DNA from: a virus
Strand: one strand, 5' to 3'
IMG/VR virus record: IMGVR_UViG_3300037219_000017
Coordinates: 1 to 64,000 of that record
DNA length: 64,000 nucleotides
How positions within the stretch are numbered: the stretch's first letter is position 1; every line of letters starts with the position of its first letter. Position numbers and translations under genes: made by a program. The notes beneath the pieces were generated by a model that did not search any database, was not told the DNA's origin, and worked only from the letters and a program-made list of their open reading frames with translations. This document shows, one piece after another, positions 1 through 59,100 of the stretch.

Positions 1-1
1 G

Positions 2-202
2 TTCGTCCCGCGAGTCCCTATATCATGGCTGCATGACTACGTAAGCATGCTGCGGGTTACGATGACCTTGAAGCCAGTCGGCGATCTAACGTCGGCTATG
101 TCCGCAACAGTGGACGCGTGTGACCATCAGATCATGCGCCGCATCGAAGAAGTTCAGACTTATCTGGACCGGCTAGACGCTGGTCCGTCGAGCATCAACT
201 AA
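2..202 (+). CDS. Partial hypothetical protein (3' end only)
   Basis: An open frame enters from the left edge and stops at TAA 200-202. The visible 66 residues end in a charged helical stretch (RRIEEVQTYLDRLDAGPSSIN). The AAGGAG Shine-Dalgarno of the next gene overlaps the stop codon, so the two are probably in one operon. An internal ATG could also be the true start. No family recognised. Confidence 0.5.
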   Translation, partial: FVPRVPISWLHDYVSMLRVTMTLKPVGDLTSAMSATVDACDHQIMRRIEEVQTYLDRLDAGPSSIN

Positions 203-213
203 GGAGATCCCAA

Positions 214-507
214 GTGCCCACCAAAGCACACTACGCCACTTGCGGTGTACGGCCGCCTTTGCGCGTGGCGCGAGGCAGCATGACCGGCATGCGCGGCTAT
301 TGTAAATACTCGAAGCGCGACTACGAGAGCTTCGCGAAATCAATTCGTGGAGCCCGCGAAGAGTGGCTGAAGTTACACACCGCAGACCCAGACGCCGGCA
401 TCGAGGCATTCAATGCTGTTATCTGGGGCCTGATTCAAATGTTCAAGAAGGACAACCCAGAGTTCGAGGAGCTGCGATTCATCGGCGCTTGCAGCTCAAC
501 AGTGTGA
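214..507 (+). CDS. Hypothetical 97-residue protein
   Basis: GTG start preceded 7 bases upstream by AAGGAG (201-206). The N-terminal third is basic and low in structure; the rest has a tyrosine- and lysine-rich segment (YCKYSKRDYESFAKSIRG) and an amphipathic C-terminal helix. It stops 24 bases before the MoxR-type ATPase start, so it is likely in the same operon. No known family recognised. The start is well supported; the function is unknown. Confidence 0.6.
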   Translation: MPTKAHYATCGVRPPLRVARGSMTGMRGYCKYSKRDYESFAKSIRGAREEWLKLHTADPDAGIEAFNAVIWGLIQMFKKDNPEFEELRFIGACSSTV

Positions 508-530
508 GCCGACAAAAACGGAGGCAGATA

Positions 531-1625
531 ATGCGCATATTAGATCTTGAAAAGATTGTGGAACCAATGTACGAAGCGGGGGATGCTGTGCATTTGGTAG
601 GGCCGCCGGGCTGTGGCAAGACGGACTTCATCGAGCACGATGTAATACGCCGATTGAGTGCCAAGTACGGTCAACAATTCGGGTTTCGCAAGAGTGTCGC
701 ACCGACACTGGATGCTCCCGACTACAAGGGCTTTCTGATCCCCACGAAGGGGCCAACAGGAGAGCCCATCAGCGTGTTCACTCGATCGCCGGAGTTCCCG
801 AGCGACGCGTATCTGGCAGAGTTCCCGAGGGGCATTTACTTCATCGATGAGCTTTCATCGGCGGAGCATCTCACCCAAAAGGCGCTGGCATCTGTGATTC
901 TAGAGAAGCAGTTCGGGAATCACAAACTGCCCAAGGACTGGCAGATCTACATAGCAAGCAACCGCGCACAGGACAGAGCTGGGGCGTTGCGTATGCTCAG
1001 CCACATCAGAAACCGAATCAGGGAGATCCCGATGGAGAACGACGCCCTGTCGTGGGCAGTCTGGGCCGAGAAGAACGGCATCCATCCGCTCATCATCGCG
1101 TGGGCGAAGTCCAATCCGACGACCGCGTTCGTTGACGAAGTACCCAACACCGATCGGCCGTTCAGTTCGGCGCGCTCTGTGGTACGTGCGGCGCATCTGC
1201 TGCAAGTCGGGCTCGCGCGGGATGAGGACGGCAAGTTGATCGACATGGAGCTGCCGAGCGACGTGCTGATTCAGCAAGCCATCTACGGCGACATTGGCGA
1301 AGGCGCCGGTGCCAATCTGTTCGGATACCTGAAGGTGTGGGACAAGCTGCCCACGTTGGATGAGATCATTGCAGATCCGAAGACGGCGAAGTGTCCGCAG
1401 GAACTCAGCGCTGGCTGGGCTGCTGGCCAGATGTGCATTCACTTTGCGAAGGGCGACAACATCGACCCGCTGTGGACCTACACCGAGCGCTTACCGCGTG
1501 AGGTTCAGGTGTCAATGGCGAAGTCGCTGCTGGAGCGCAGCGGTTCATCGCTGCTCAACTCACCGTCCCTCATCAAGTGGATTCACAAGAACAAGGCGTT
1601 GATCACGTCGAGCACAGGTCGATGA
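531..1625 (+). CDS. MoxR/CobS-type AAA+ ATPase
   Basis: 364 residues from the ATG at 531, chosen because GGAGG sits at 520-524; the frame is open further upstream but lacks a ribosome site there. Walker A GPPGCGKT is at residues 24-31 and Walker B FIDELSSA has D106 and E107. The sensor region follows (IYIASNRAQDRAGALRM). Family knowledge: MoxR-like AAA+ proteins act as hexameric chaperones or remodellers, usually paired with a VWA-domain partner. Here a VWA/HExxH protein (3556-4746) and a DUF3150-like protein (1758-2654) lie just downstream, so the three probably work together. The target is unknown. It overlaps the next small gene by ATGA. Confidence 0.85.
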   Translation: MRILDLEKIVEPMYEAGDAVHLVGPPGCGKTDFIEHDVIRRLSAKYGQQFGFRKSVAPTLDAPDYKGFLIPTKGPTGEPISVFTRSPEFPSDAYLAEFPRGIYFIDELSSAEHLTQKALASVILEKQFGNHKLPKDWQIYIASNRAQDRAGALRMLSHIRNRIREIPMENDALSWAVWAEKNGIHPLIIAWAKSNPTTAFVDEVPNTDRPFSSARSVVRAAHLLQVGLARDEDGKLIDMELPSDVLIQQAIYGDIGEGAGANLFGYLKVWDKLPTLDEIIADPKTAKCPQELSAGWAAGQMCIHFAKGDNIDPLWTYTERLPREVQVSMAKSLLERSGSSLLNSPSLIKWIHKNKALITSSTGR

Positions 1626-1783
1626 AGGCGCCGGTTCTGTACAAGAAAGCTGTAGGGCGGATGTTCCTATTCGCCTTGCGGCATGATTGCCCGCAGCTAG
1701 CAGCGACGATCTTGTTACTGCTAGGTCTGCGGATTGTGTCTATTACGAAGGAGAGAAATGACAGACTCAAATCAGCTCAATGA
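1622..1783 (+). CDS. Small membrane-like protein (53 residues)
   Basis: ATG at 1622 overlaps the TGA of the ATPase gene (ATGA), typical of translational coupling. The protein begins MKAPVLYKKAVGRMFLF and has a hydrophobic stretch around residues 25-37 (LAATILLLLGLRIV), so one weak membrane segment is possible. Its 3' end overlaps the start of the next gene (1758) by 26 bases. No family recognised. It could be a link between the ATPase and the DUF3150-like gene, or only a spurious short frame. Confidence 0.4.
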   Translation: MKAPVLYKKAVGRMFLFALRHDCPQLAATILLLLGLRIVSITKERNDRLKSAQ

Positions 1784-2654
1784 CGCTCTAGCTGCGAACT
1801 ACATGGTGGTCGATCTGACTCTCAAGAGCTGGACCGGCAACATTACAGATCGCGAAGCGTCGTCCGAAGTTATCACGTCCAAGGGAGCAGCCCAGGACAG
1901 CGGTAAGTTCGTGAAGTACCTCTTTGCGTCGGCCGACGGCGAATTGCAAGCAGTGCGCGCCTCAGCCCGCGTGATCGGGAGTTACGTGAAGCAGGAAACA
2001 TCGCCGTGGCAGGGGAGCTATAGGCTCCTAGCTGCAACTAAAGCGATCGACTTTCTGACTAAGCTCAACGGCTTCAAGCAGGACTACGACAACACAGTAG
2101 CCGCGTTGGCGAACGTCTGGGACGTTCGTGTGGCGCAAGCCATCCACAATCTCGGCGGCCTCGCCGACGCGAACGACTATCCCGATGCTGCAGAAGTGCG
2201 GGCGTTGTTCGGGATGACCATCGACCTCTTGCCGGTGCCATCTGAAAAGGACTTCTCGCGTATCAACCTACCGGCCAACGTCGTCACGGCGCTGGGCCAG
2301 CGGCACGCGAGCGCGCTGGAGAAGCAGATGCAGACAGTGCACGACGACATGAAGAAGAATCTGCTGGAGGGTATTCAGCGCATGGCGAAGCAGCTCGGCA
2401 TGCGGGGAGCGGGTGAGAAGACGCGCCTGCATGACACGATGGTGAGCAATCTGCAAGCGCAGGTCGCCATGTTGCGGACCATGAACGCATCGGGCAGTCC
2501 CGAGCTGGCAGCCCTTGCCGACAAGATCGAGCAGCAGTTGCTCGCTACGCCGATGGAGGCGTTCCGCAACTCGCCCGCTAAGGCCGCAGAGGTGGCCGAG
2601 GCAGCGAAGAACCTGGCCATCGAGGCCGCCTTGGAGGACGTATGGCAGCTGTAA
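1758..2654 (+). CDS. DUF3150-like protein of the MoxR/VWA module
   Basis: 298 residues; ATG 1758 with AAGGAGAG (1748-1755). The start MTDSNQLNDALAANYMVVDL and the helical body (VRASARVIGSYVKQETSPW, then a Q/K-rich coiled-coil half) resemble the DUF3150 proteins often found in phages and plasmids beside MoxR-type ATPases. That match is from memory and was not searched. No catalytic motif is visible; alpha-helix dominates, with possible coiled coil around residues 190-290. Position between the ATPase and the VWA gene suggests an adaptor or substrate subunit. Function unknown. Confidence 0.65.
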   Translation: MTDSNQLNDALAANYMVVDLTLKSWTGNITDREASSEVITSKGAAQDSGKFVKYLFASADGELQAVRASARVIGSYVKQETSPWQGSYRLLAATKAIDFLTKLNGFKQDYDNTVAALANVWDVRVAQAIHNLGGLADANDYPDAAEVRALFGMTIDLLPVPSEKDFSRINLPANVVTALGQRHASALEKQMQTVHDDMKKNLLEGIQRMAKQLGMRGAGEKTRLHDTMVSNLQAQVAMLRTMNASGSPELAALADKIEQQLLATPMEAFRNSPAKAAEVAEAAKNLAIEAALEDVWQL

Positions 2655-2851
2655 AATGGAACGGCCCCGTGGACGGTCTAACCGCAGAAGAGCTACACAA
2701 CATCGTGGCGGCAATCGCCTTTTACATCGAGGAATTCGAAGAAGGTGAGGACATGCGCGAGATGGAAGACCTCCAAGCGAAGATACAGCAAGAGCTGTAC
2801 TTGCGCCGCGGAGTGGCTCTGCGTCACGCCGAGCAGGAGAAGCAGAAGTGA
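2642..2851 (+). CDS. Hypothetical 69-residue acidic protein
   Basis: Starts inside the end of the DUF3150-like gene (13-base overlap). Sequence is acidic and helical (IAFYIEEFEEGEDMREMEDL) with a basic tail. Its TGA overlaps the GTG of the next gene (GTGA), which supports real translation. No family recognised. Confidence 0.6.
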   Translation: MAAVKWNGPVDGLTAEELHNIVAAIAFYIEEFEEGEDMREMEDLQAKIQQELYLRRGVALRHAEQEKQK

Positions 2852-3156
2852 GGCGCGCAGGCGCATGGCGAGCCTCGCAGGTCAAGGAAGACTTCTGCGT
2901 GATCGCCGCATCGTATGGTCCCACGAGCAAGGAAGAAGTGACTACGTACACCGTCCGCGGTGTGGTTGTCAGTCCCGTGCACGTGGCTCAAATTATTGAC
3001 AGGCAGGGTCGCGCATATGGCTGGTACGTATTCCCGACCGGCGCTGTGCAGCTCGTCAATGAAGGCAATGTCAGGGAGCGGAGGAGTGGGAGGGTGAATG
3101 GCGTACAAATCCAAGGCAAAGAGACTGATATACCGAAACAAGTGGCGCCGCAGTGA
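2848..3156 (+). CDS. Hypothetical 102-residue protein
   Basis: GTG start in a GTGA overlap with the preceding gene. The middle looks like a small beta domain (TYTVRGVVVSPVHVAQIID, then AYGWYVFPTGAVQLV). The last 59 bases overlap the start of the following HNH gene, which may have been inserted here, so the C-terminal tail (GRVNGVQIQGKETDIPKQ) may be acquired. No family recognised. Confidence 0.55.
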   Translation: MRRAGAWRASQVKEDFCVIAASYGPTSKEEVTTYTVRGVVVSPVHVAQIIDRQGRAYGWYVFPTGAVQLVNEGNVRERRSGRVNGVQIQGKETDIPKQVAPQ

Positions 3157-3559
3157 AAGGGGGCGCGCTTCGGAGCGAGCCTCCCGGAGGCGAGCAATGG
3201 CCGACCCGGTCCGTCACGCGAGAATAAAAGCCGGCGCGCGGCGCACTTACTACCGCATGGTAAAGAACCCCACGTATCGGAAAATAGTGGCGGCTCGAAC
3301 AGCTACATTTTACCGCGTTCACCGCGACAAAATACTGCGGCGGCAGCGGCTACGCAAAGGAGTGCCGGACGAAACGAGGCCGCGACCGGAACTGTGCGAA
3401 CTCGACTGTAAACGAAAAGCAAAAGTCCGCGACCACGACCACGGAACAGGGCGGTTCCGTGCGTGGTTGTGTCAGCCGTGCAATGCAGGCTTAGGTATGT
3501 TCAAAGACGATCCCGAGTTGCTCGAAAGGGCAGCAGTTCATATTAGGAGGCATAAATGA
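3098..3559 (+). CDS. Endonuclease VII-like HNH nuclease (copy 1)
   Basis: 153 residues. A long Arg/Lys-rich N-terminal region is followed by the recombination endonuclease VII fold: cysteine pair (C-E-L-D-C, one residue longer than the usual CxxC), catalytic-type DHDH, then WLCQPCNAGLGMF. Family: beta-beta-alpha-metal nucleases related to T4 gp49, common in phages as free-standing, homing-like enzymes. It overlaps both neighbours (59 bases upstream, 4 downstream) and splits the MoxR/DUF3150 genes from the VWA gene. Active-site residues look intact. It could be a selfish element or a genuine resolvase. Confidence 0.85.
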   Translation: MAYKSKAKRLIYRNKWRRSERGRASERASRRRAMADPVRHARIKAGARRTYYRMVKNPTYRKIVAARTATFYRVHRDKILRRQRLRKGVPDETRPRPELCELDCKRKAKVRDHDHGTGRFRAWLCQPCNAGLGMFKDDPELLERAAVHIRRHK

Positions 3560-4746
3560 CTCAACAGACAAAACGACACCCCGCTTTGACCGAGGCTATT
3601 TCCGCATTACTCGTAAGACACCCCTTCTTCGCGAGCTTGCTGCTGGATCTAACTGATATTGTCGAAGCAACTCAGCTGCCTAATAGCAGTCAGCTGAACA
3701 CGTGCGCGACGAACGGCAAGACCATCTGGGTGAACCCGGAGAACTTCGCTAAGTACACTATCGATGAACGCATCGGTATGCTCGTGCACGAAATCGACCA
3801 CATCATTTTCCAGCACATGTCTCGTGCACAGGCGTATCAGCAGCTCGGGGTAGGACCCGACTTGGAGACCTTCTCGCATAAGAAGTTCAACCATGCTTGC
3901 GATTACATCATCAATGCACACCTGACTAGTCAAGGATTCAAGCTCCCGCTGGGCAGTCTCCAGAATTCACAGGTCACAGCCGACGACATCGCCGACGAGG
4001 TGTACCTGAAGCTCCCCAAGGACGAGGAGAACAAGCCGGATGGTCCGGACCAGCACGTGCCAGACGATCAGCAGGTCAGCACGGACAAGCCAACCATGCA
4101 GGCAGCGCTGAAGAAAGCCCAAGAGATGGCGAAGATGCAGGGCAAGGGCGCTGGCGGCATGGAGCGGTTTATAGATGACTTCTGCACACCGAAGATCAGC
4201 TGGCAGGAGCATCTGCGCAAGGCGCTGATGGCCAACACGCGGGGGCGGGATGTCTACACATGGCAGCGGCCGAACCGGCGCAAGCTGGCAATCGCTCCGC
4301 ACGTGTACATGCCTGGTCGAGCCGGGCTCCAAGGACCGGAGATCGCGGTCGAGATCGACACGTCGGGGTCGATTGGCGAGAAGGAACTCAAGACGTTCCT
4401 CGGGGAACTCTCTGGCATCATGGATGAGATCCAACCAAGAAAAATTCACGTAGCCTACGTCGATGACGCGCTCCACGGAGACATCATCGAGTTGGAAGAC
4501 TCCAATGAGCTGACCGAGCTAGGCAAGAAGGCCGGAGGCGGTGGCGGAACTGATATGACGGTGATCTTCAGAGAGATCGAGGACCGTCAGTTGCCAATCG
4601 AATCAGTCGTCGTTTTTAGCGACGGTTACACTCCGTTCGGGGAGGACGTAGGAATCCCGACAGTGTGGGCGCTTACAACGCCGGGTATAGTAGCTCCATG
4701 GGGAACTACTGTGCATGTCCCATTGGGAGATCAAGAGGAGAGTTGA
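3556..4746 (+). CDS. VWA domain protein with HExxH motif (metallopeptidase-like)
   Basis: 396 residues, ATGA overlap with the HNH gene. The N-terminal half has a zincin-type motif, H78-E-I-D-H82, in the order seen in the VWA-like metallopeptidase family (DUF2201-like). The C-terminal half is a von Willebrand A domain: MIDAS DTSGS at residues 268-272, then GGGGGTDM and VVVFSDGYTPF. A Gln/Lys-rich linker joins them. In cellular systems such proteins partner MoxR ATPases; a MoxR-type ATPase lies at 531-1625. Whether the zinc site is active is unknown; MIDAS residues look complete. Confidence 0.85.
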   Translation: MTQQTKRHPALTEAISALLVRHPFFASLLLDLTDIVEATQLPNSSQLNTCATNGKTIWVNPENFAKYTIDERIGMLVHEIDHIIFQHMSRAQAYQQLGVGPDLETFSHKKFNHACDYIINAHLTSQGFKLPLGSLQNSQVTADDIADEVYLKLPKDEENKPDGPDQHVPDDQQVSTDKPTMQAALKKAQEMAKMQGKGAGGMERFIDDFCTPKISWQEHLRKALMANTRGRDVYTWQRPNRRKLAIAPHVYMPGRAGLQGPEIAVEIDTSGSIGEKELKTFLGELSGIMDEIQPRKIHVAYVDDALHGDIIELEDSNELTELGKKAGGGGGTDMTVIFREIEDRQLPIESVVVFSDGYTPFGEDVGIPTVWALTTPGIVAPWGTTVHVPLGDQEES

Positions 4747-4747
4747 T

Positions 4748-5095
4748 ATGGACTTTAATCTAATTTTACCAGGAGCGCTAATCATCGGGCTCGGCGCTGC
4801 GGCGTCGCACGTCCTATCTAACAGACGCATGGCGCGGCTACAGAAGCACGCGTTCGCTATGCACATACAGGGCATGAGCACCATGGCGAACATGTGTATC
4901 GAGATCCAATGCGTCAACTACGGAGCGCGGATTGAGGACGCGAAGATGGTCTTCGAGACTACGATGGCCGAGTGCGGCATGCCCATCGTCGCGGTCGATA
5001 GGCCGATCAGCGCCGCAGCCCGCGCATACCTCGAAGGAAAGCGCGCAATGTTCTTAGCCAAGGAGAAAGCGGATGTCGACACGAAATCGTCTTAA
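4748..5095 (+). CDS. Small membrane-anchored protein
   Basis: 115 residues; ATG 4748 preceded by AAGAGGAG. Residues 4-24 are hydrophobic (LILPGALIIGLGAAASHVLS) followed by basic residues, a single N-terminal membrane anchor. The remainder is helical with several cysteines (CIEIQCVN, AECGMP). It overlaps the next gene by 23 bases. No family recognised. Confidence 0.6.
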   Translation: MDFNLILPGALIIGLGAAASHVLSNRRMARLQKHAFAMHIQGMSTMANMCIEIQCVNYGARIEDAKMVFETTMAECGMPIVAVDRPISAAARAYLEGKRAMFLAKEKADVDTKSS

Positions 5096-5828
5096 CCCAA
5101 AGGAAGCAGCTGGGCTAGCTTGTGGGCTCTACGGAGTGCTGCGCAACACCATTGACTATCTGGACATTCCACTGACAGATGAACAGATGGTCGACGTGTG
5201 GGAAGTCAGCTTCCCGACGGAAATAAAGAACGCATACCTGACGCTCCACGCATCAGGCTACTCAATGAATATTCATTGCAGGCAGGTGCGGTTCTACGTC
5301 CCCGATCTGAAAATGGACGTTAGTTTCTACCAAAGAAATCGACAGGAGTGTTTCTTGAGGCCGCCAACGTCGGGACCGTGGCTGCTACACGTACCGACAC
5401 AGCGCGGCACGTCAATACGCCACATGCCGCTGATAGATTTCAAGAACGCGCTCGTGAAAGACACCTACGCCGAGTTTTTGGTCTGGTGCAGCGCCGCGGC
5501 GAAGTGCGACGAGAGACAGACTGAAGCCCGCGGCGTCATAGATGACATCATCAAGATGTTGTCGACAGCAGGGCAGCTCAGGCGTATGGTCCCCGAGCTG
5601 GTGCAGTATCTGCCAGAGAGCCATCGGAGGGCCATTGCAGATCAGCTGCGCGCGAGCCCGTTCCCCGTTGAGTGGGCGGCGTATCCGAAGGACAAGGTTG
5701 ACCGGCTGCTCGCCGCGCTGGCAGAGGGCCACCTGTTTAACGGCATGGGCAAGCGCGACACCGATAACATGTGCGGCGGGGAGAGTTGGGCGAGGTACTC
5801 CATCAGAAAAGAGGGAAAGCATGATTGA
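5073..5828 (+). CDS. Hypothetical 251-residue protein upstream of DNA polymerase
   Basis: ATG 5073 with AAGGAGAAAG upstream. N-terminal half is mixed alpha/beta with scattered cysteines; the C-terminal half is helical (VIDDIIKMLSTAGQLRRMV). It overlaps the polymerase start by 8 bases, so the two are probably co-translated. No recognised motif; the position suggests a replication accessory role but this is inference only. Confidence 0.65.
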   Translation: MSTRNRLNPKEAAGLACGLYGVLRNTIDYLDIPLTDEQMVDVWEVSFPTEIKNAYLTLHASGYSMNIHCRQVRFYVPDLKMDVSFYQRNRQECFLRPPTSGPWLLHVPTQRGTSIRHMPLIDFKNALVKDTYAEFLVWCSAAAKCDERQTEARGVIDDIIKMLSTAGQLRRMVPELVQYLPESHRRAIADQLRASPFPVEWAAYPKDKVDRLLAALAEGHLFNGMGKRDTDNMCGGESWARYSIRKEGKHD

Positions 5829-7689
5829 TATCCCGATTGATTTTGAAACTTTCTGGGACAAGGACTACCAGCTGCAAAAGATGACTACGGCTGAGTACGT
5901 CCTAGATCCGCGCTTCGAGATCATCGGTGTCGCTTTGCGCACCCCCGACGGCGTTGACCACTGGGTTTCTGGGGACGCTGATCACGTCCGCAGCGAGTTA
6001 CTCCGGCTCGTTCCCGACTGGTCCGCCGTCCGGGTGGTGGCGCATAATGCGCGCTTCGAGGCTTCGATCCTGGAGTGGCGCTTGAACATCAAACCGGGAG
6101 CGTACTTCTGCACGATGGTAGGGTCGCGCCCCCACATCCTTCCGTACACGCGGAGCGTTTCTCTTGATGCCGTTGCCCGCCACCTCGGCTGTGGCACGAA
6201 GGGCGACTATGTTCACAAGGTCCAAGGCAAGCACCGCGCGGACTTCACCGCCGCGGAGTTAACTGATTATGGTGAATACTGTAAAAACGACGAAAAAATT
6301 ACGGCGCGAATTTCGACTTACCTTTCTCGAATTTTGCCAGCCGATGAGCAAGATTATCTGGACCTGACCATAAAGAAATTCGTAAGACCGAAGCTCAGGC
6401 TCGACCGCGCAGCCCTCAGCGCCCGCTTAACACAAATCGAGACGACCAAGGCGACCCTCGCCACGCTGATTCAGACGCGCTACAAAGCGACGCTGAAAGA
6501 CATCAGGTCAAGGCCCAAGTTCGCCGCGCTGTTGGCAGCGCAGGGCGTAACGGCACCCATGAAGGCGAATAAGAAGGGCACCGGTACGACCTATGCCTTC
6601 GCCAAGGATGACCTCGCGTTCAAGGAGCTGCTCACGCATCCGAATCAGTCGGTCAGGGAGCTGGTCGCGGCCAAGAATGCCATGTCCTCAACCATGGAGG
6701 AGGGCCGTGTCAAGAGACTGATCACGCTGCACGATATCAAGGATGGCTGGCTGCCGATCCCTGTCGTGTACTACGGCTGCCATCCTGGGCGCCTGAGTGG
6801 TGACGATGAGATCAACATGCAGAACCTGCCTCGGGTAGAGACCAAGAACGGAGTCAAGAAGGGGCACCTGCGCTACGCGGTCATCGCCCCGGCGGGGTAC
6901 AGCGTGCTCGCCGCAGACTTCAGCAACATCGAAGCCCGCATAGTGGCGACGCTGGCGGGCGAGGCAGAGCTTCGCGAGGGCTTTCGCAGCGGTGCGGATA
7001 TCTATTCATCGTTCGCATCCAAGATCTACGGGCGCGAGATCAACAAGAAGGACGACCCCAACGAGAGGTTCGTCGGCAAGGGCTGCATCCTCGGGCTGGG
7101 CTATGGCATGGGCTGGAAGAAATTCCAACTCAAGATGGCACAGGAGGGAATCATGTTCACTGACGATCAGGCGAAGGACATAGTGTACCTGTATCGCTGT
7201 ACCTATCCCGGTGTCCCGGCGCTCTGGAGGCACCTTGAGTACATGGCGTCGACCTACATGCTCACGCCAGACGTACCGCACCCAAGCGAGATGGCGAACC
7301 TGATCTTCGCGAACGAGCGAATCATCCTGCCCAATGGCATGCCGCTGATGTATCCGGGGCTGCGGCACGACGGCGACGGATACAAATTTGACAGCCGGTT
7401 TGCTGGGGTTGAAGTGCCTAACTTTATTTGGGGCGGGACGTGGCTGGAGAACATATCGCAAGCCCTCGCCCGTATCATCGCCGTCAGGGCTGAGCTGCGG
7501 CTGGCACGAAGGGGATTGATAGCAGCCCATCAGGTACACGACGAGTTGATCTGGGTGGTCCCGACAGCCATCGTGGATAGAGTGAAGCCAGTAGTTGCTC
7601 TCAGCATGTGCGAAGCAGTAGACTTCCTCCCTGCTTTGCCAATAGCAATCGAGATCAAGCATGGACCCACATATGGCGATGCCAAGTGA
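5821..7689 (+). CDS. Family A DNA polymerase with 3'-5' exonuclease
   Basis: 622 residues from ATG 5821 (GAGGGAAAGC upstream). Proofreading exonuclease: Exo I D7/E9 (IDFETFW), Exo II VAHNARFEASIL, Exo III YCKNDEKIT. Polymerase: motif A ADFSNIEAR with D366, motif B from K420 (KGCILGLGYGMG), motif C HQVHDELIW with D574. All catalytic carboxylates are present. There is no 5'-3' exonuclease domain, as usual for phage enzymes. It should copy the phage genome together with the primase-helicase at 18,816 and the helicase at 15,224. Confidence 0.95.
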   Translation: MIDIPIDFETFWDKDYQLQKMTTAEYVLDPRFEIIGVALRTPDGVDHWVSGDADHVRSELLRLVPDWSAVRVVAHNARFEASILEWRLNIKPGAYFCTMVGSRPHILPYTRSVSLDAVARHLGCGTKGDYVHKVQGKHRADFTAAELTDYGEYCKNDEKITARISTYLSRILPADEQDYLDLTIKKFVRPKLRLDRAALSARLTQIETTKATLATLIQTRYKATLKDIRSRPKFAALLAAQGVTAPMKANKKGTGTTYAFAKDDLAFKELLTHPNQSVRELVAAKNAMSSTMEEGRVKRLITLHDIKDGWLPIPVVYYGCHPGRLSGDDEINMQNLPRVETKNGVKKGHLRYAVIAPAGYSVLAADFSNIEARIVATLAGEAELREGFRSGADIYSSFASKIYGREINKKDDPNERFVGKGCILGLGYGMGWKKFQLKMAQEGIMFTDDQAKDIVYLYRCTYPGVPALWRHLEYMASTYMLTPDVPHPSEMANLIFANERIILPNGMPLMYPGLRHDGDGYKFDSRFAGVEVPNFIWGGTWLENISQALARIIAVRAELRLARRGLIAAHQVHDELIWVVPTAIVDRVKPVVALSMCEAVDFLPALPIAIEIKHGPTYGDAK

Positions 7690-7897
7690 GACCGAGCGAC
7701 AACACGAATGCGTTTGCTGTCGCGGTCCGGGTATTATCCCTGCAAAGAGAGCAGATATAGAAGCGTTGTTAGGCTATAAAGTTAGCGTAGACTACTCCAC
7801 CAACGTATATCTGCCTGGCGGTTGGTGGACGTGGCGCCCGCTCTGGCACTGGGTCCGCTGGGTCGCGCAAGACAGCCCGTCCGGCAAGAGATTGTGA
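7661..7897 (+). CDS. Small cysteine- and tryptophan-rich protein
   Basis: Up to 78 residues; in-frame ATGs at 7661, 7673 and 7679, the first overlapping the polymerase gene by 29 bases. A CVCCRGPG motif near the N terminus could be half of a metal site. The C-terminal half is unusually tryptophan-rich (WWTWRPLWHWVRWV), perhaps membrane-associated. Its TGA forms a GTGA overlap with the next gene. No family recognised. Confidence 0.5.
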   Translation: MDPHMAMPSETERQHECVCCRGPGIIPAKRADIEALLGYKVSVDYSTNVYLPGGWWTWRPLWHWVRWVAQDSPSGKRL

Positions 7898-8205
7898 CTG
7901 CTAATCACTGTGATCTATTACCCGGAGGCGACGCATATGCGCAGCTGTGGATGGCGATCCTGCGACAGGCGCTGGACGACGCGACATACCACCGTCACTC
8001 CAAAACTGGCTCGTCGGAGGCCGTTGCCAACCGCGCAGACGCACGCAAGTGGTTACGCGCAGAGATTACAAGCGTTGGCTCTATGCAATGGATCTGCGAT
8101 TTGATAGGCATCCCCGCCGAGCGGGTGCGATCAGAGTTTGAAGAGAGGCTGCTCGGCAACACAGGCAAGCGACGACGCGGGCCTTATCCAAGGAAACGTA
8201 CATGA
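7894..8205 (+). CDS. Hypothetical 103-residue protein
   Basis: GTG 7894 in a GTGA overlap; the frame is open further upstream but this start fits the operon pattern. Sequence is helical with a W-Q-hydrophobic centre (AQLWMAILRQALDDATY, SMQWICDLIGIPAERVR) and a basic tail (KRRRGPYPRKRT). The spacing of the last two helices is helix-turn-helix-like, so DNA binding is possible but unproven. Confidence 0.55.
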   Translation: MTANHCDLLPGGDAYAQLWMAILRQALDDATYHRHSKTGSSEAVANRADARKWLRAEITSVGSMQWICDLIGIPAERVRSEFEERLLGNTGKRRRGPYPRKRT

Positions 8206-10031: not shown

Positions 10032-10504
10032 AGTACACCATCAAAAAGTGCAATAGCCTAGTCAAGATGCAGGCCATCCATAAGATGGCGTTCGCTGATG
10101 ATAGCTGGCCGGGCAACGACCACGAATTCTGGGTAGCCTACGACGAGCACGGCGGTGTCGCCGGCTTCGCCTCGGCCGTCCTGATGACTACGAAGGTAGT
10201 GTTCTTATCGCGTAGTGCAGTCACTATGAAGCATCGCGGCAACGGACTGCACCGACAGCTGATCGACGTGCGCATGAAGTGGGCGCGGGACGAGGGAGCG
10301 ATCCTTGCTCTCACATACATACGGAAGTACAACTACGCATCGCTCGTTAACCTGCTGCGCCGGGACTTCCACTTCGCGGGCCGCGTCCTGATTACGGCCA
10401 GGAACGAGGACTTCCATGTGATGTTCAAAGCCATGCACGGCGACGCCAGAAAGCTGAAGCCGCACATGACCAAGTACATCAACGACATGTTGGAGATGGA
10501 CTAA
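10028..10504 (+). CDS. GNAT-family acetyltransferase
   Basis: 158 residues. The acetyl-CoA loop is visible as SAVTMKHRGNGLHRQLID (R/Q-x-x-G-x-G/A type), followed by the long helix and the strand ILALTYIRKYN. The C-terminal third is basic and may contact nucleic acid or the substrate. Phage GNAT proteins are known to modify host or phage proteins or other small groups, but the substrate here cannot be told. It is coupled to both neighbours (4-base and 1-base overlaps). Confidence 0.75.
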   Translation: MKYTIKKCNSLVKMQAIHKMAFADDSWPGNDHEFWVAYDEHGGVAGFASAVLMTTKVVFLSRSAVTMKHRGNGLHRQLIDVRMKWARDEGAILALTYIRKYNYASLVNLLRRDFHFAGRVLITARNEDFHVMFKAMHGDARKLKPHMTKYINDMLEMD

Positions 10505-12135
10505 TGATTCATCCCGGCAAGGGGCCAGTGTGCCCCAAATGCAAAGCGCATCGAATGGCGCCGGGCAGCCGCACGCGCACCGGGAAACCCGTATGGGTGT
10601 GCCGCCCAAGTATTGACGGCAAGAAGGTGTACTGCTACGGCACGACCGATCCCAAGGCCACGGTCGCTGGCATACGCAAGCGCGGCGAGTCGGACACTCC
10701 GCCGCCCGTGGTGTTCGACCGGAAGCTAGGGAAGACGCGCCACTTGATCATCACATCCGCGCAGAACGCTACGCCGGTGCACGAGAATTTCTTTCAGTCG
10801 CTGTTGGAGTACGCACGGTTCAACAACGCCGAGCTGCTGGTGATACCGCTGCGCTACCGCAACCCGACCAGCCTGTTCACCGACAAGGAGCGCGGCCAAG
10901 AGTGGTGGTTCGGCACGCCGCTGGTTCTCAAGAGCGGCGAGATCGTCCCGCACCCGTACACGAAGTACCTGTGGAACCAACGCAAGGCGATCAACTCTAA
11001 CCTCTTGCTTATGGCTGACATCAAGATCCAGGCGGCGGCGAGTGACCCGCTTTCGCAATTCGAGAGTATCTCGGGCGCGGAGTCGGCTATCTTTGGACAC
11101 ACCAAGCTGCAACAACGCACCATCCCGGTGCCGAAGAACTCGGTGGCTAAGATCCTGACCACGACAGGCGCCTGTACCGTGAAGAACTACACGGATACAA
11201 AGAGGGGCAAGATCGGCGAGTTCCACCACGCACTGGCAGCGGTCGTCGTGGAGTTCAACGACCGATTCTTCCACCTTCGCCACGTCAATGCAGACGCCAG
11301 AACTGGCGAATTCACCGACATAACCCTGCGTTATTCGCCAGGTAAGACGAGTAAAGCACCGCGGCCGTTGGCCGTAATCCTAGGAGACACGCATGTTGAC
11401 TTCATTGACCCGCTGGTTGAGCAAGCCACCTTCGGCAAGGGGGGGATCGTACCTACCGTCAATCCGGAGAACCTCGTATTCCATGACCTCAACGACGACT
11501 ATGCGATCAATCCACATCACGCTGGTAATCCTTTCAATGCGATCGCGAAACTTCGCGCTGGCCGTAACTCGGTGGCGGATGAGATTCGGCGTGCGATTGT
11601 TTACGTGGACGGGAAGCGCAACGCTACCCGGGAATGCACTGTCGTCTCTTCAAACCATGATGACTTCCTGCGCCGCTGGATAATCAAAGCGGACTGGAAA
11701 GAAGACCCGGAGAACGCCGAGACCTACCTGAAGTTGGCGCTGAGCATGGTCCAAGCGACCGCGCTCACGGTCCACGGCACAGAGTACCCTAGCCCGTTCC
11801 AACTCATGCTTGCGCAGCACGCGCCGAAGGTCAGAGCGCTGGAGGACAACGACTCGTTCGTGCTGGGCGGCGTGGAGCTAGGCATGCACGGCGACCGCGG
11901 CCCGAACGGCGCGCGGGGCAGCATCAAGAACCTGCGGCGCATAGGCACGCGAAGTATTATCGGGCATTCACATACTCCAGGCATCGAGGAGGGCTGCTAC
12001 CAGACCGGGACCAGCACGAACCTACGCCTAGAGTACAACCTCGGGCCGTCGAGCTGGATGAACACTCACTGTATCCTGCACGCTGACGGTAAGCGGCAGC
12101 TGATCAACATAATTAACGGCAAGTGGCGCCTATGA
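10504..12135 (+). CDS. Calcineurin-like metallophosphoesterase with N-terminal zinc motif
   Basis: 543 residues, TAATG overlap. The N terminus has CPKCKAHRM and a later cysteine (VWVCRP), a probable zinc ribbon. Phosphoesterase metal motifs appear in order in the C-terminal half: GDTHVDF, HDLNDD, SSNHDDFLRRW (the GNHD/E position), LGMHGDRG and IIGHSHTPG. Architecture and length recall phage T5 A1-type proteins, DNases of this superfamily used in host DNA breakdown. That assignment is inference; other roles such as Mre11-like end processing are possible. Confidence 0.8.
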   Translation: MIHPGKGPVCPKCKAHRMAPGSRTRTGKPVWVCRPSIDGKKVYCYGTTDPKATVAGIRKRGESDTPPPVVFDRKLGKTRHLIITSAQNATPVHENFFQSLLEYARFNNAELLVIPLRYRNPTSLFTDKERGQEWWFGTPLVLKSGEIVPHPYTKYLWNQRKAINSNLLLMADIKIQAAASDPLSQFESISGAESAIFGHTKLQQRTIPVPKNSVAKILTTTGACTVKNYTDTKRGKIGEFHHALAAVVVEFNDRFFHLRHVNADARTGEFTDITLRYSPGKTSKAPRPLAVILGDTHVDFIDPLVEQATFGKGGIVPTVNPENLVFHDLNDDYAINPHHAGNPFNAIAKLRAGRNSVADEIRRAIVYVDGKRNATRECTVVSSNHDDFLRRWIIKADWKEDPENAETYLKLALSMVQATALTVHGTEYPSPFQLMLAQHAPKVRALEDNDSFVLGGVELGMHGDRGPNGARGSIKNLRRIGTRSIIGHSHTPGIEEGCYQTGTSTNLRLEYNLGPSSWMNTHCILHADGKRQLINIINGKWRL

Positions 12136-18815: not shown

Positions 18816-21227
18816 ATGAGCTTTTACGACAGGGTCCTCCCTGCGAAAGGCCCGTTTACCTTGATGACTGGGGTCTATGGACCCGACGGTAAGCTACATG
18901 ACCCGACGCACTGGGAGCGATTGCAGACGCACGAGGCGCTAGAGAAGAAAGTCCGGGAGCTGGCCACCCAGCCCCAGGAGATCTACTACGCGGTGGGTTC
19001 CTATGCGGGTAGGAGACGCAAGGGATCCATCGCGAAGCGTGCGTTCTTTCTCGACCTGGACTTCAAGTCGTTTGACTCCCCGCAAGATGCTATCCGTGGC
19101 CTGAATGTGTTCGTGAATACTGTGGGTTTGCCTCCTCCAAGTATTTATGTCAGTTCAGGCCACGGCATGCACATCTATTGGTGCCTCAACCGCGACGTTC
19201 CGATCGCGGAGTGGGAGCCGGTGGCTGACGCGCTCAAGGCGAAGTGCGCGGAGCTGAAGTTCCGCGCCGACCCGATGGTCACTGCTGACGCCGCGCGCAT
19301 CCTGCGCTGCCCCGGCACACTCAACCGCAAAGCTAAGGAGCCTGTCCCATGCGAAGTACGAATAGACAACGGAGCTACCTACTCTCTCGAAGCAATCGCA
19401 GCGCCGTTAGACGCTGCATCAGCCCCTTCAAATGTATCAAAACTGCTCGCCCTGGCTCCACCAGATGCGCTGATCACCAAACCGAACTTCCCAAAGCTCA
19501 GCGCCGACGAAGTAACAGCGATGTTGGCAAGCATCAAGCTGCAAAAGGACGAGCGCGAAAAATGGACGCACATCCTGTGCGCGATGCAGGACTGGGGACA
19601 GAAATCGGAAGAGTCGTGGGAGATCTTCTCCGAGTGGTCGGCTACGCAGCCGGACCACCACCCGGAAAAAATACGCGGAGAGTGGGAGGGCTTCCACGTG
19701 GGCGGTGGTATAACAATCGGTACACTGGTGAAGATGGCAAAGGACGCAGGCTACGAGCCGCCCGGCGTACCGCAGCCCGTGACGATCGAGCAGCCCACAA
19801 GTCTATCCGAGCAGATGGCAGCCGCGGCGCAGCCAAGCGCAGTCGACGATGACGTGCTTGTACCGGTCGTCGTCACGGTGGTGTCTGATCCACTTATGAT
19901 CGCCGCGCAGCACGCAGTCAACTTAACCGGCAGAGTGCGGTTCACTGAGCAAGACGCTATCAACTGGCTCGGCGCAGAGTTTGTCACTGTCGACAACGCG
20001 CCGGAGTATTACTTCTCCATGACGAAGCGCGAGCTGCTCAAAGACAACATCATCAATAAGAGGATCACCCGCTACATGCCATTGAACAGCCAGCGTAAGC
20101 CAATCAAAGCGACGGTTATCATGGAGCAGTGGGGCGTCAAACAATCAGTCAAAGCCCCGGGCTACCACCCCACGGCGGCAACGATCTACACAGAAGGTGG
20201 CGTTAACTACGTGAACAGATACACTCCGCCGGACGTCATGCTGCAAGCGAATAAGTTCGAGATCCAAATGATCGAGCTATTCTGGAAGCATATGTTCCCG
20301 CGCCCGCAGGACCAGCAGTTCAGCAAGTACATGCTGCAGACCTACGGGCACCTGGTCCAACACCCAGACATCAAGATCGAGTCGGCGCCGCTGATCATCG
20401 GCGAGCCCGGCAGCGGCAAGACCACGCTGGCCTTCGCCATAGTGCGGCGCTTAGTGGGCACACAAAACGCTTTGCTGGTCGACAACGAGACGTTGAAGGG
20501 AACGTTCAATGGCCACGCCGGGGACAAGCATGTATTCTACTTCGACGAGATCAAAGTGCAGGGCAGATGGGACAGCGAAGACATCGCCAACTCCCTTAAG
20601 AACCTGGTGGTCGGCGAAACGATGTTGATCCACCCAAAGTTTTTGACGCCATTCGAGCTGCCGAACAGAATGTTTATCACGGCTACGTCCAACTACGACG
20701 ACGCGATGCACCTGTCGTCTGACAAGGAGCGGCGATGGGGGGTGTACGAGCACTTCCCACCACACAGCACAGCTGCTATGAAGAAATTCTTTGTCGCATT
20801 TCACGACTGGATGAAGGGACCGCGCGGGCCTGGCGTGCTGCGCTGGTACTTCAGCCAAGTGGACCTGACAGGATACAGCCCACACGACGAGCCGCCATGG
20901 ACGGACGCCAAGGGGACCATGGTGGAGCAATCGCAGTGCAGAGAGGTTCAGAGTATCGTCGCTGCGATGAAGAACGGAGAGGCGCCGTTTGCGGGGGCTC
21001 TCACGACTCGCCTGCTGGTGCAGAATTTCTTACACTCGCAGACCGGGAAAACATATACGACCGAGGAGGCTGGGAAGCACCTAAGTAAGTCGTCGCCGGA
21101 GAGGGTTGTAGAGATAAAAACAATGAGGATCGGAGGCAAGGCGACGGTCGTCTACTGTTGGAAGGATACAAAATACTGGGCCGATCCCAAACGCACAGAC
21201 GACGAACGAAGAAAAGCAATTGGCTAA
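18816..21227 (+). CDS. Primase-helicase (AEP-type primase, PriCT-2, superfamily 3-like helicase)
   Basis: 803 residues. The primase has FFLDLDFK with D80 and D82, SSGHGMHIYW with H116/H119, and DAARILRCPGTLNRK. A PriCT-2-like domain follows at about residues 225-310 (REKWTHILCAMQDWG, WSATQPDHHPEK). The C-terminal helicase has Walker A GEPGSGKTT at 529-537, Walker B VFYFDEIK near 575 and FITATSNYDD. It should prime and unwind at the replication fork with the polymerase at 5821. Its stop overlaps the stop of the convergent giant gene by four bases. Confidence 0.9.
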   Translation: MSFYDRVLPAKGPFTLMTGVYGPDGKLHDPTHWERLQTHEALEKKVRELATQPQEIYYAVGSYAGRRRKGSIAKRAFFLDLDFKSFDSPQDAIRGLNVFVNTVGLPPPSIYVSSGHGMHIYWCLNRDVPIAEWEPVADALKAKCAELKFRADPMVTADAARILRCPGTLNRKAKEPVPCEVRIDNGATYSLEAIAAPLDAASAPSNVSKLLALAPPDALITKPNFPKLSADEVTAMLASIKLQKDEREKWTHILCAMQDWGQKSEESWEIFSEWSATQPDHHPEKIRGEWEGFHVGGGITIGTLVKMAKDAGYEPPGVPQPVTIEQPTSLSEQMAAAAQPSAVDDDVLVPVVVTVVSDPLMIAAQHAVNLTGRVRFTEQDAINWLGAEFVTVDNAPEYYFSMTKRELLKDNIINKRITRYMPLNSQRKPIKATVIMEQWGVKQSVKAPGYHPTAATIYTEGGVNYVNRYTPPDVMLQANKFEIQMIELFWKHMFPRPQDQQFSKYMLQTYGHLVQHPDIKIESAPLIIGEPGSGKTTLAFAIVRRLVGTQNALLVDNETLKGTFNGHAGDKHVFYFDEIKVQGRWDSEDIANSLKNLVVGETMLIHPKFLTPFELPNRMFITATSNYDDAMHLSSDKERRWGVYEHFPPHSTAAMKKFFVAFHDWMKGPRGPGVLRWYFSQVDLTGYSPHDEPPWTDAKGTMVEQSQCREVQSIVAAMKNGEAPFAGALTTRLLVQNFLHSQTGKTYTTEEAGKHLSKSSPERVVEIKTMRIGGKATVVYCWKDTKYWADPKRTDDERRKAIG

Positions 21228-24200
21228 GGCTGATCCCAGCGCGTCTGGTCTGTGACCTGTTGATTTTCCTTTCCAAGCGGCACTCCATACTGAATCTTCA
21301 AATCTTTGTTCGTTGTACCTTGAATCTCCCCGCTAGAAATCCAGGCGCCAGGGTTCCGGGCATTAAAACTATTGCTGCGATCCCAAGCGGCAACCGCCTC
21401 CGGCGATCCAGGGGGCGCGCTAATGATAGCGCGAACGATTGCCGTCCTCGCAAGACTCTGCGCCTTTGTAATTCCAGTCGCCACTCGATGCTTCTCTTGT
21501 GCATCGGCCACGTCTGCTGGAAGAAATCCAAACGTCTTCTTCGCCGCGTCGAGGCTCGACGGCTTCGTGATCGGCACCCCTGCACTATTCAACTTCCCTG
21601 TGTGAGCCAACTCATATCCCTGTGCGCCATCCTGGTACACCTTCAACGGGATCATACTACTGATCGCCCCTGGAACATCCCCGTTGATCAACTTCCCCAT
21701 CGCTCCCATCGCGTTCTTCCCCACCATCTGAACCAAGGCGCCTGCCTCATCGTTCACAAAATTCTTCCACGCGTCTTTGTCTCCCGATAATATATCCGGC
21801 ATGTCGTGGAAAATTATATTTGCAAACCCCATCCGCTCCTGCAGATCTATCCCCAACCCTTGCGCAATCGGCCCACGCGCAAGGTAGTTTCCCACCGTCG
21901 GGCCAGCGAGATCCGTCAACCATCCATGGATCGCGTTCTTCATATCAAAATACTCTCCCTCCTTGTCGAAGATCTTGTGATAGGCATACACAGCAAGATG
22001 TGCCGGTGCTATACCGGCCACACCGTACACTCCTGTGTACAAGAACGACCCAACCGCCAGACCGCCCAGTGTCTTTGCCGCCTGCCATGACCGCTGATTC
22101 TGCGTCTGCTCACCCACGTCGGAGCGCAGCCCGGGCACGGCTTTGATCACCTCAGCTATGTTCCCATAGGCCAAGTGCGCCATCGCCTGCGAGTAAGTCA
22201 TCATCATCGTCAGGGTGTTGCCCCCCCATATTTTATTCACGGCCTGAAACGCCCGCGGCTTATTCGCCGCGGAGTAGTCCGCGTGGTACTTCTCCACATC
22301 GTCCGCGGCCTTGCGCAGACCGTTCGCCAGGTCCTCCGGATCGTCTGGATTTTTGACGTTGAGTTCGAGGGACGCAAGGGCCGTGCTAGTACGGTTGAAC
22401 GCGTCGGTCATCGTGGGCATCATGCGGGCGTAGTCCATGACCTTAAGCACGGACGGCCACGTGCCACGTGCGATCTCATTCAGCGAATTCGCGAACCCGT
22501 GGCTGATCACGCCGCGCTCGTGCAGGATCTTGAGAGCCGGCGCGAACCTGTTCATGCCGCTCTTGGCTACGGCGTTCTGAATCGCTGTCTGAATGTTCTC
22601 CGGCGACGGTCCACCGTCAGCATTCCACCGAGAGAACTGTTCGTGCATCCCTGTGCGCAGTGCCGGTGACATCACCACGCCCATCGCCTTATACATCGCA
22701 GCCCGCGCAGGCAGCTGGCCGTGCTCGGCCGCCAGCCCGGGGATGGTCGTAGTGAAATTCTGCGTGCCCCATATGACAGCGTGCGCCGGTGACGTGAGGT
22801 AGTTCAGGAACCCCAGTCGCGCGGTCTGTCGATTGAGAAACCCCCCGGTGTTTATCTCCGCGTCGGTAGCGGCGCGGGCTGCGAGAGTGTGCACGATCTC
22901 TCCGCGTTTGAACATCGTGTCCTGACTAACCGGGCGCCCGATGTCGTTGCCCGCGTCGGACGACGCCATCGTACGCAGAGTCGCCATCGCGTCCGCCCGC
23001 TCGAACATCGTGCTGATCTGCGCGCTGTGCCAGATAGTGCTGGTTGCGTGGTCCGCGAAGTTCCGCCGCATCTCGCTGGCTTTCACACCTGCGAACCCCT
23101 TGCGCGTCAGTTGCGAGCTGGCACTCGCGCTGCGTGTGGCTTGTTTCTCCAGGTAGGCGCTATGCAGTGAGTCTATCAACGCCTTCGTTCCTTTGTCCGT
23201 ACCACCACGCTCGATCCTGGAGATAGCTGCTGTCATCAGCTCGTGCATACCAGGATCAAGAGACTTCGCTTCAGTGTGATCATAGACTTTCGTCGACACC
23301 AGCGGAGACTTATAGCCGGCGTCCAGCAGAGCACGCCGCGCCTGGAGAGCATCGTTCTGGCTGTCGTGCATCGACACATGGTCGACTTTGTAGTCCACAC
23401 GCCAGTCATTGGCGCCGGCGTTTCTGACTGTGGCTGTCGAGTTCGGCGATTCGTTACTAACCTGCTCTGCAAATGCGCGGGCCTTCGCTTCGTTGGCAAA
23501 CGACTGTCCCTCCGGCGCAGACTCGTTGGTCGCCTTGACGACGTACTGCCCATCTCGACCCAGGTGGGCGTACGGTCCGTCGATGTCAGAGCCCACCCAG
23601 GACTTCAAAGCCGCGAGCACCTTCGCGTTCTTTGGACCGACATCCACGGCGCCGCGTGGCTTGAGCAACCCTTTCAGCGCGCCTTCGTTCTTCGCACCGT
23701 ACAAATGCTTCAGCTGCTCAGAATTGAGACCCAACTCGAACGCCTGGTTCGCCGTGTCCACAGCACTCTTGCGCTCCATGACACGGAGCGCCTTGCTGGC
23801 AACAAGGGCACCGTCATAGACGCGGCGCGCGACAGGTGACAAACCTTTGTAGCTGTTCTCCATATCGGCGTGTCGTGCTGCGAAGCCAGCGCGCGCACTG
23901 GTGGCAGGTAGTTGCTGATCAGCCGCCGTGCGAGGGTCGATCTTCCACAAAGAGGAGTCGCGCAGCAGGCCGGCGACTGCCAGGTTGTCGTGGTTGGACA
24001 ATCCGTTCCACTCACGCACGACGGGGTTTACTATCTCCTGGCCCTTGTGAACACGTACTTGACGCGCCCACTCTGACTCTCGGATTTTGTTGAGTGGGTT
24101 CGCGGCGTCGTCGTTGCCGAAGAACCGTTTGCCGTCGCGAAAGATCTGCCCCACAGATTTGAGAGCAAACGTGGTCTTCCGTCCGAGATCCACGAGCTTG

Positions 24201-58985: not shown

Positions 58986-59027
58986 GTTGGAAACTCCTGA
59001 AAAAACGCGGAAAAATCACAAATTCGG

Positions 59028-59100
59028 TAGCGCAGGTCGGACTCGGACCGACGATAACCGCCTTATGAGGGCGGTGCCTTAGCCGCTAGGCGACTGCGCA
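59028..59100 (-). tRNA. tRNA with CAU anticodon (Met or Ile2)
   Basis: 73 bases fold fully: acceptor TGCGCAG/CTGCGCT (first pair T-T mismatched), D arm GCCT-AGCGGCTA-AGGC, anticodon arm CCGCC-CTCATAA-GGCGG, variable TTATC, T arm GTCGG-TCCGAGT-CCGAC, discriminator A. The 3' CCA is not encoded (CCG follows). The T loop has C at position 55. CAU can be Met or lysidine-modified Ile; sequence does not decide, but the anticodon stem lacks the initiator GGG/CCC pairs. Confidence 0.8.

Follow-up and report, generated by a model that had tools for sequence, protein, structure and literature searches.

Pairs of a MoxR ATPase and a VWA protein are already known from phages. In N4 the pair gp24/gp25 is expressed as middle genes and stands in the core-protein table of the N4-like viruses, where gp25 is listed by one method out of three, and in jumbo phages an ATPase and a metallopeptidase-VWA protein have been described as a chaperone, with virion assembly and proteolytic processing as the proposed role (Iyer et al. 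2021, PMC7824862). In Acidianus two-tailed virus (ATV), the MoxR protein p618, which is present in the virion, binds the VWA protein p892 with a rise in ATPase activity (PMC4124505). For the cellular NorQD system, twisting of the target to insert iron has been proposed, with a finger of NorD in the pore. These statements, like others taken from the literature below, refer to the sections of the papers covered here. We analyzed three linked genes in which such a pair is joined by a DUF3150-like protein, located at positions 531 to 4746 of a 64,000-nucleotide stretch of viral DNA (hereafter the window) that makes up 64,000 of the 64,701 bases of IMG/VR virus record IMGVR_UViG_3300037219_000017. 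A literature search that covered few subscription papers and preprints found no description of this trio, no mention of DUF3150 and no function for N4 gp24/gp25; in the covered sections of the CRISPRi-ART paper, where fitness data for the N4 pair were sought, rIIAB alone was met. The three genes and their motifs are as follows:

531 to 1625, + strand: MoxR-like AAA+ ATPase, 364 amino acids, N4 gp24 family (phrog_1297, E 1.1e-59, residues 2-359)
600 to 623, + strand: Walker A, GPPGCGKT, residues 24-31 (P26, G27, G29 and K30 invariant in 13 rows)
834 to 851, + strand: Walker B, IYFIDE, residues 102-107 (D106 and E107 invariant in 13 rows)
1758 to 2654, + strand: DUF3150-like third component, 298 amino acids, divergent superfamily member by hhalign match (Shine-Dalgarno sequence AAGGAGAG before the ATG at 1758)
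3556 to 4746, + strand: DUF2201 metallopeptidase-VWA protein, 396 amino acids, N4 gp25 family (PF13203, PF09967; phrog_1314, 3e-76)
3787 to 3816, + strand: predicted HExxHxxxxH metal site, H78-H87 (H78, E79, H82 and H87, plus D116, invariant in 42 rows)
4237 to 4326, + strand: conserved linker, residues 228-257, candidate finger-in-pore element (low model confidence, above-average conservation)
4324 to 4737, + strand: VWA domain by fold match, with a complete metal ion-dependent adhesion site (MIDAS; D268, S270, S272, T332 and D356, invariant in 42 rows)

Judging from these sequences, we hold with moderate confidence that the genes encode a three-component AAA+ machine of the early-to-middle, DNA-replication phase of infection. 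The strict linkage of the three genes supports their being one functional set. A scan of IMG/VR with an alignment of the middle protein alone returned 126 relatives, and the viral loci of the best 80 were then searched with ATPase and VWA profiles; a scan with a single middle-protein sequence had returned nothing. The ATPase gene was present in 77 loci and the VWA gene in 73, invariably on one strand and no more than 900 bp away. The initial annotation had treated the three genes as one set and had named a lack of conserved co-occurrence as one refuting outcome; the set was upheld, with the full trio in 72 of the 80 loci and all eight incomplete loci truncated by a contig end. Two gene orders were found, ATPase-DUF3150-VWA (M-D-V) in nine loci, from the window's clade, and DUF3150-ATPase-VWA (D-M-V) in 63.

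The pair also occurs without the third gene. For comparison, among 50,697 phage records (tblastn, E <= 1e-5), 484 matched the VWA protein and 334 the ATPase. Isolated phages chosen by their VWA match alone carried the ATPase in 13 of 13 cases; with five further isolates chosen by ATPase or DUF3150 matches, the count was 18 of 18. Pair holders in this sample are N4-like and jumbo phages, and in the jumbo phages RaK2 and SD-2_S15 the ATPase and VWA genes are adjacent. The trio is held by the window's clade, by Planktothrix/Synechococcus phages and by a large set of uncultured phages. A DUF3150 match in Rhizobium phage TM3_14A (E 0.0025, about 75 positions, opposite strand) was regarded as chance.

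The coordinates and Walker motifs given in the initial annotation hold. Pfam scored the window ATPase at 17.9 bits for AAA_5, below the gathering score of 22, and returned no match to AAA_3; its Planktothrix phage relative clears the AAA_5 cut-off (23.6 bits). We assigned the protein to the MoxR AAA+ family from its Walker A and B motifs, the sensor-1 asparagine (Asn144, invariant across the 13 aligned rows) and the linked VWA partner. The ATPase profile (A3) also picks plasmid genes annotated as 'MoxR family ATPase' in L101, L102 and L103, and a PDB sequence search with the profile returned Midasin and other AAA+ proteins. From its sequence, the protein is expected to assemble as an ATP-hydrolyzing ring, presumably a hexamer. 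In Pseudomonas phage ZC08 (L194) the gp24-type ATPase gene is split, with an HNH endonuclease gene overlapping the gap between the two pieces, and in Pseudoalteromonas phage pYD6-A (L191) it is likewise in pieces; these look like intron or homing insertions.

The middle protein of the window has no match to Pfam DUF3150 (PF11348, gathering score 24.9). Because Pfam alone misses it, we looked for homology by way of plasmid and bacterial relatives. A search of 12 genomes or records for DUF3150 gave five above the cut-off, and these are the genomes behind a profile of five DUF3150 proteins (A7), two members of which were scanned directly and both exceeded the cut-off. Aligned by hhalign, A7 and a profile of 10 phage relatives of the middle protein (A1) matched over 252 columns (probability 97.8, E 1.2e-12). 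By Pfam, the best member of a trio is that of a Cupriavidus basilensis plasmid (L097), annotated DUF3150, at 22.1 bits versus 24.9. At the level of sequence profiles the middle protein is thus a divergent DUF3150 homolog within the wider superfamily. The initial annotation had called it a DUF3150-like helical protein; the kind stands by profile, and the purely helical character does not, as the AlphaFold model (predicted local distance difference test score (pLDDT) 91.6, predicted template modeling score 0.66) has mixed alpha/beta structure and is helical in its C-terminal half. Foldseek with this model found nothing significant (best E 0.28) and VIA-align found mainly helical bundles at Z < 10, as is usual for helical models; from the model we claim neither a known nor a new fold.

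The third gene encodes, in one protein, the HExxH site and complete MIDAS that had been read from the sequence initially. PF13203 (putative metallopeptidase) scores 1.8e-39 and 136.5 bits versus a cut-off of 23.2, and PF09967 (VWA-like) 4.7e-18 and 65.9 bits versus 26.4. The spacing of HExxHxxxxH differs from that of metzincins. In the structure model the VWA domain spans residues 257-394 and aligns with VWA domains such as 6snk_A by VIA-align (Z 10.6, root-mean-square deviation 3.0, 133 residues). Ahead of it, residues 231-257 have pLDDT below 50, yet their conservation is 2.84 bits versus 2.53 overall, highest at W236 and P253. By analogy with the NorD finger, we propose that this linker becomes ordered upon ring binding. 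PHROGs and RefSeq call this family 'HNH endonuclease', a label that covers N4 gp25 (L003, 11164-12306) and many RefSeq phage records; Pfam finds a metallopeptidase-VWA protein and no HNH domain, and the label on N4 gp25 homologs is probably a propagated mislabel.

The metal site has been weighed in two ways. It could bind or carry a metal with no cleavage of peptide bonds while the trio opens a target enzyme as NorQD does, and the targets could be phage enzymes of nucleotide metabolism. NorQD does drive iron insertion, and the pair has a dCTP deaminase or a thymidylate synthase gene in its neighborhood in N4, RaK2, SD-2_S15, RHEph16, RG-2014 and phiCB2047-B. However, such genes are generic in phage replication arms and none was recognized beside the window trio, and the invariance of E79 in 42 rows exceeds the needs of plain metal binding. 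Metallo-cofactor insertion seems to us very unlikely.

Our best reading, at middling confidence, is ATP-driven protein remodeling, possibly proteolytic, carried out from a replication-stage gene block. The MoxR-like ATPase would form a ring and hydrolyze ATP. The DUF2201 protein would act as its VWA co-chaperone, with the MIDAS gripping the target or the DUF3150 subunit and the flexible, conserved linker inserting into the ring. The N-terminal HExxHxxxxH domain would be positioned on the substrate, where it may either cleave it or handle a metal. The DUF3150-like protein would be a constant ring-associated subunit of the presumed complex, most likely a regulator or an adaptor for substrates, given that DUF3150 proteins adjoin a second, different AAA+ family as well (below). 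The machine would operate early to middle in infection, during DNA replication, on some protein. A remodeling machine had also been proposed in the initial annotation, and by analogy it agrees with the MoxR/VWA precedents.

The genomic setting bears on when the machine would act. The window holds a tailed-phage genome whose DNA polymerase A, helicase, primase and exonucleases form a replication arm on the + strand, and whose head, portal-like and terminase genes lie on the - strand. Module genes overlap or abut, with good ribosome-binding sites at several, and a promoter scan found no excess over chance (two versus 3.4 expected). In all 10 loci of the clade, the module is followed by the gene for DNA polymerase A. 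In the D-M-V group, 20 loci have a flank of 5.5 kb or more; a related polymerase lies 3.8-5.3 kb downstream in nine of them, and in the other 11 the flank is shorter than 5.7 kb. The module is under purifying selection: in a single comparison of the window with its closest relative (78% identity, synonymous divergence close to saturation), the ratios of nonsynonymous to synonymous substitution were, in ascending order, about 0.08 (VWA protein), 0.09 (ATPase), 0.14 (DNA polymerase) and 0.34 (DUF3150-like protein).

This setting argues against a virion-assembly chaperone and processing protease, in which the MoxR/VWA pair would aid assembly and the peptidase domain would trim structural proteins. 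Such a role has been published as a proposal for the same domain pair in the group 2.2 jumbo phages (Iyer et al. 2021, PMC7824862), is analogous to that of the tail-development pair p618/p892 of ATV (PMC4124505), and would suit roseophage RPP1, in which a second structural module adjoins the N4 gp24/25 homologs. However, the window's module precedes DNA polymerase A within the replication arm and runs opposite to the head genes; N4 gp24/gp25 are middle genes; and the trio occurs on conjugative plasmids, which have no virion. We consider virion assembly unlikely, and we favor a replication-stage machine because of the gene position, the timing in N4 and the presence on virion-less conjugative plasmids.

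Phage sequences gave no match in a first scan of genomes; plasmid sequences did. Seven plasmid regions were examined. Four, from Cupriavidus, Rhodovastum, Burkholderia cenocepacia and Simplicispira, hold the trio in the window's order (with the ATPase about 3.6 kb upstream in Simplicispira), and three, from Mycolicibacterium, Allomeiothermus and Sphaerotilus, hold the pair only. The trio is found on Burkholderiales plasmids, often near type IV secretion genes, and the Burkholderia DUF3150 protein has matches in 41 of 72,556 plasmid records. Scanning GTDB with three plasmid sequences gave 79 bacterial loci. The full trio is present in 58, in M-D-V order on one strand (including L132, with its ATPase 4.9 kb off); two loci have DUF3150 with the VWA gene, two DUF3150 with an ATPase gene (one, L169, being a weak cross-hit to a different AAA+ gene) and 17 DUF3150 alone. 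In trees, the Planktothrix phage groups with the Rhodovastum plasmid for both the VWA protein (97/92) and the DUF3150 protein (99/96). Because the same pairing appears in both trees, the three genes have probably crossed together, at least once, between phage and plasmid lineages.

Sharing between phages and conjugative plasmids, which face identical host barriers, would also suit host takeover or counter-defense, in which the machine extracts or degrades a host protein such as a transcription factor, a repair factor or a component of a defense complex. Downstream VirB4-type conjugation genes occur in 39 of the 53 bacterial loci that have at least 3.5 kb past the VWA gene, and the grouping of the Planktothrix phage trio with the Rhodovastum plasmid trio in both trees points the same way. 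However, PADLOC-DB 2.0.0 gave no convincing match for the three proteins (a 38-residue P-loop match of the ATPase to MkoA at E 3.7e-4, and none for the other two; an NCBIfam search gave no name), and gp24/gp25 are core in N4-like phages, which speaks against a narrow counter-defense role. The suggestion in the initial annotation that the phage disarms a defense thus lacks support, and a core infection step fits better than an accessory counter-defense one because the pair is among the N4-like core genes. Host takeover or counter-defense as a whole appears to us somewhat unlikely.

Distant DUF3150 loci (L165-L182) carry a different partner. In 14 of the 18, a PF00004-type AAA+ gene precedes the DUF3150 gene in the same orientation; in the remaining four, the DUF3150 frame starts within 142 bp of the contig start. 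Because DUF3150 proteins thus accompany two different AAA+ families, we read the middle protein as a ring partner. Beyond this, we tentatively entertain the joint possibility that DUF3150 is a general, so far unrecognized class of AAA+ partner subunits and that the trio is an ATP-driven targeted metalloprotease that rewires the new host cell. Here the MoxR ring would unfold a protein picked via DUF3150 and the MIDAS and pass it to the HExxHxxxxH domain, and phages and conjugative plasmids would both use the trio.

In L167 (5239-7849) the DUF3150 gene follows a PF00004 AAA+ gene with IetA-like PADLOC matches; in L177 (4690-7882) it again follows a PF00004 AAA+ gene, with a PD-(D/E)XK nuclease and a UvrD helicase nearby; and in L174 a DUF6094 methyltransferase and a helicase lie near it. 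These neighborhoods are possibly mobile elements or defense islands.

Several observations weigh against the three-component machine of our preferred reading. The IMG/VR scan left out 46 of the relatives, and clustering the 80 middle proteins at 60% identity leaves 15 groups, so that the 80 loci are not 80 independent events. A clear DUF3150 gene was found in 1 of the 18 isolates, namely the Planktothrix phage chosen for that gene, and because the other 17 have no clear DUF3150, N4-like phages may do without the third part or have another in its place. The VWA tree places the D-M-V phages beside eight pair-only phages, mostly Schitoviridae (95/91), and not beside the window's clade, which they adjoin in the DUF3150 tree (98/94); because of this placement beside pair-only phages, the trio may lack a single, simple history. 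Schitoviridae may have lost DUF3150, or modules may have recombined; the branches are long and the root is arbitrary, and we are unsure of either. For the DUF2201 protein, a PDB sequence search found no solved relative, the low pLDDT of the linker may merely stem from a shallow alignment (36 rows), and the putative peptidase activity is predicted from the motif.

Four further genes lie within the module:

1622 to 1783, + strand: small open reading frame (ORF), 53 amino acids, overlapping the MoxR stop, no Pfam match
2642 to 2851, + strand: small ORF, 69 amino acids, ORF only
2848 to 3156, + strand: conserved small protein, 102 amino acids (alignment A4, 14 invariant columns)
3098 to 3559, + strand: recombination endonuclease VII (HNH) gene (PF02945, 2.4e-14), overlapping 2848-3156 and 3556-4746

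The initial annotation had cast the three small genes as adaptors. This is not borne out for 1622-1783 and 2642-2851, for which 10 related loci yielded no recognizable relative (lowest E 0.57 and 0.086, respectively). It is possible for 2848-3156, which has relatives in 6 of the 10 clade loci at the same place, between the DUF3150 and VWA genes, and may be a candidate fourth component in the window's phage clade. The endonuclease VII gene, which separates the small genes from the VWA gene, had been overlooked. The closest relative (L006) has no such gene at this site, and relatives lie at other sites in 3 of the 10 clade loci, two of them between the ATPase and DUF3150 genes, suggesting that it is probably a mobile insertion. 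Homing endonucleases prefer conserved sites, which would be in keeping with an important module.

Elsewhere in the window, positions 1-8000 contain 15 terminator-like hairpins versus 6.3 expected from shuffles, the majority on the - strand, antisense to the genes. A gene at 10504-12135 (+ strand) encodes a 543-amino-acid protein matching phrog_1745, 'DNA transfer protein', at 4.7e-139, and also lies downstream in clade loci. The late arm holds a giant ORF (21224-29089, - strand, 2,621 amino acids) with a weak endolysin-domain match near the N-terminus and nothing else, and the sole phage tRNA gene, tRNA-Met with anticodon CAT, is at 59026-59100 (- strand). A megablast of the first 25 kb of the window against the phage collection found no near relative.

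These results matter for the N4 pair gp24/gp25, which is listed in the core of a large family of lytic phages: together, a strictly linked third gene, the DUF3150 homology of its product and the occurrence of the trio on plasmids whose Burkholderiales hosts can be cultured make a testable complex of it. DUF3150 itself gains a concrete lead, namely partnership with AAA+ ATPases.

Among described systems, the N4 pair gp24/gp25 (phrog_1297/phrog_1314) resembles the window in its ATPase and DUF2201 families, its active-site residues and its place before the replication genes. Unlike in the window, the two genes are adjacent in N4, which together with 16 other sampled isolates has no clear DUF3150 gene. 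When 21 N4 proteins were compared with the window by tblastn (E <= 0.01), gp24 and gp25 alone matched; none of the other 19 did, and the N4 hallmarks (virion RNA polymerase (vRNAP), RNA polymerases RNAP1/2, DNA polymerase, capsid, portal) were not recognizable, so at this threshold the window phage is not N4-like. The group 2.2 jumbo-phage MoxR-vWA pair has the same domain architecture as the window, with an N-terminal metallopeptidase (PMC7824862), but is described as a pair, and no DUF3150 was found in RaK2 or SD-2_S15. The MoxR-vWA ternary conflict systems (Kaur et al. 2020, PMC7159879) share the logic of MoxR, VWA and a constant third protein, but their third proteins are of the VMAP, iSTAND, FtsH and beta-propeller types, and DUF2201 is not named in the sections covered; the middle protein of the window has no match to any of these four types among the Pfam models, as distinct from those families' own profiles. 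ATV p618/p892 likewise combines a viral MoxR ATPase with a VWA partner, but belongs to an archaeal virus and to tail development, and no metallopeptidase or DUF3150 is named in the covered sections (PMC4124505). The PF11348 genes beside PF00004 AAA+ genes in Planctomycetes and Deltaproteobacteria are like the trio in that a homologous third component adjoins an AAA+ gene, and unlike it in the AAA+ family and in having no DUF2201 VWA gene in the stretch examined. NorQ/NorD and RavA/ViaA are cellular, unlike the phage trio, and the covered sections of the NorQD paper name neither DUF2201 nor DUF3150; both systems nevertheless share a MoxR ring and a VWA co-factor with the window, and NorQD serves as the mechanistic template for the machine proposed here.

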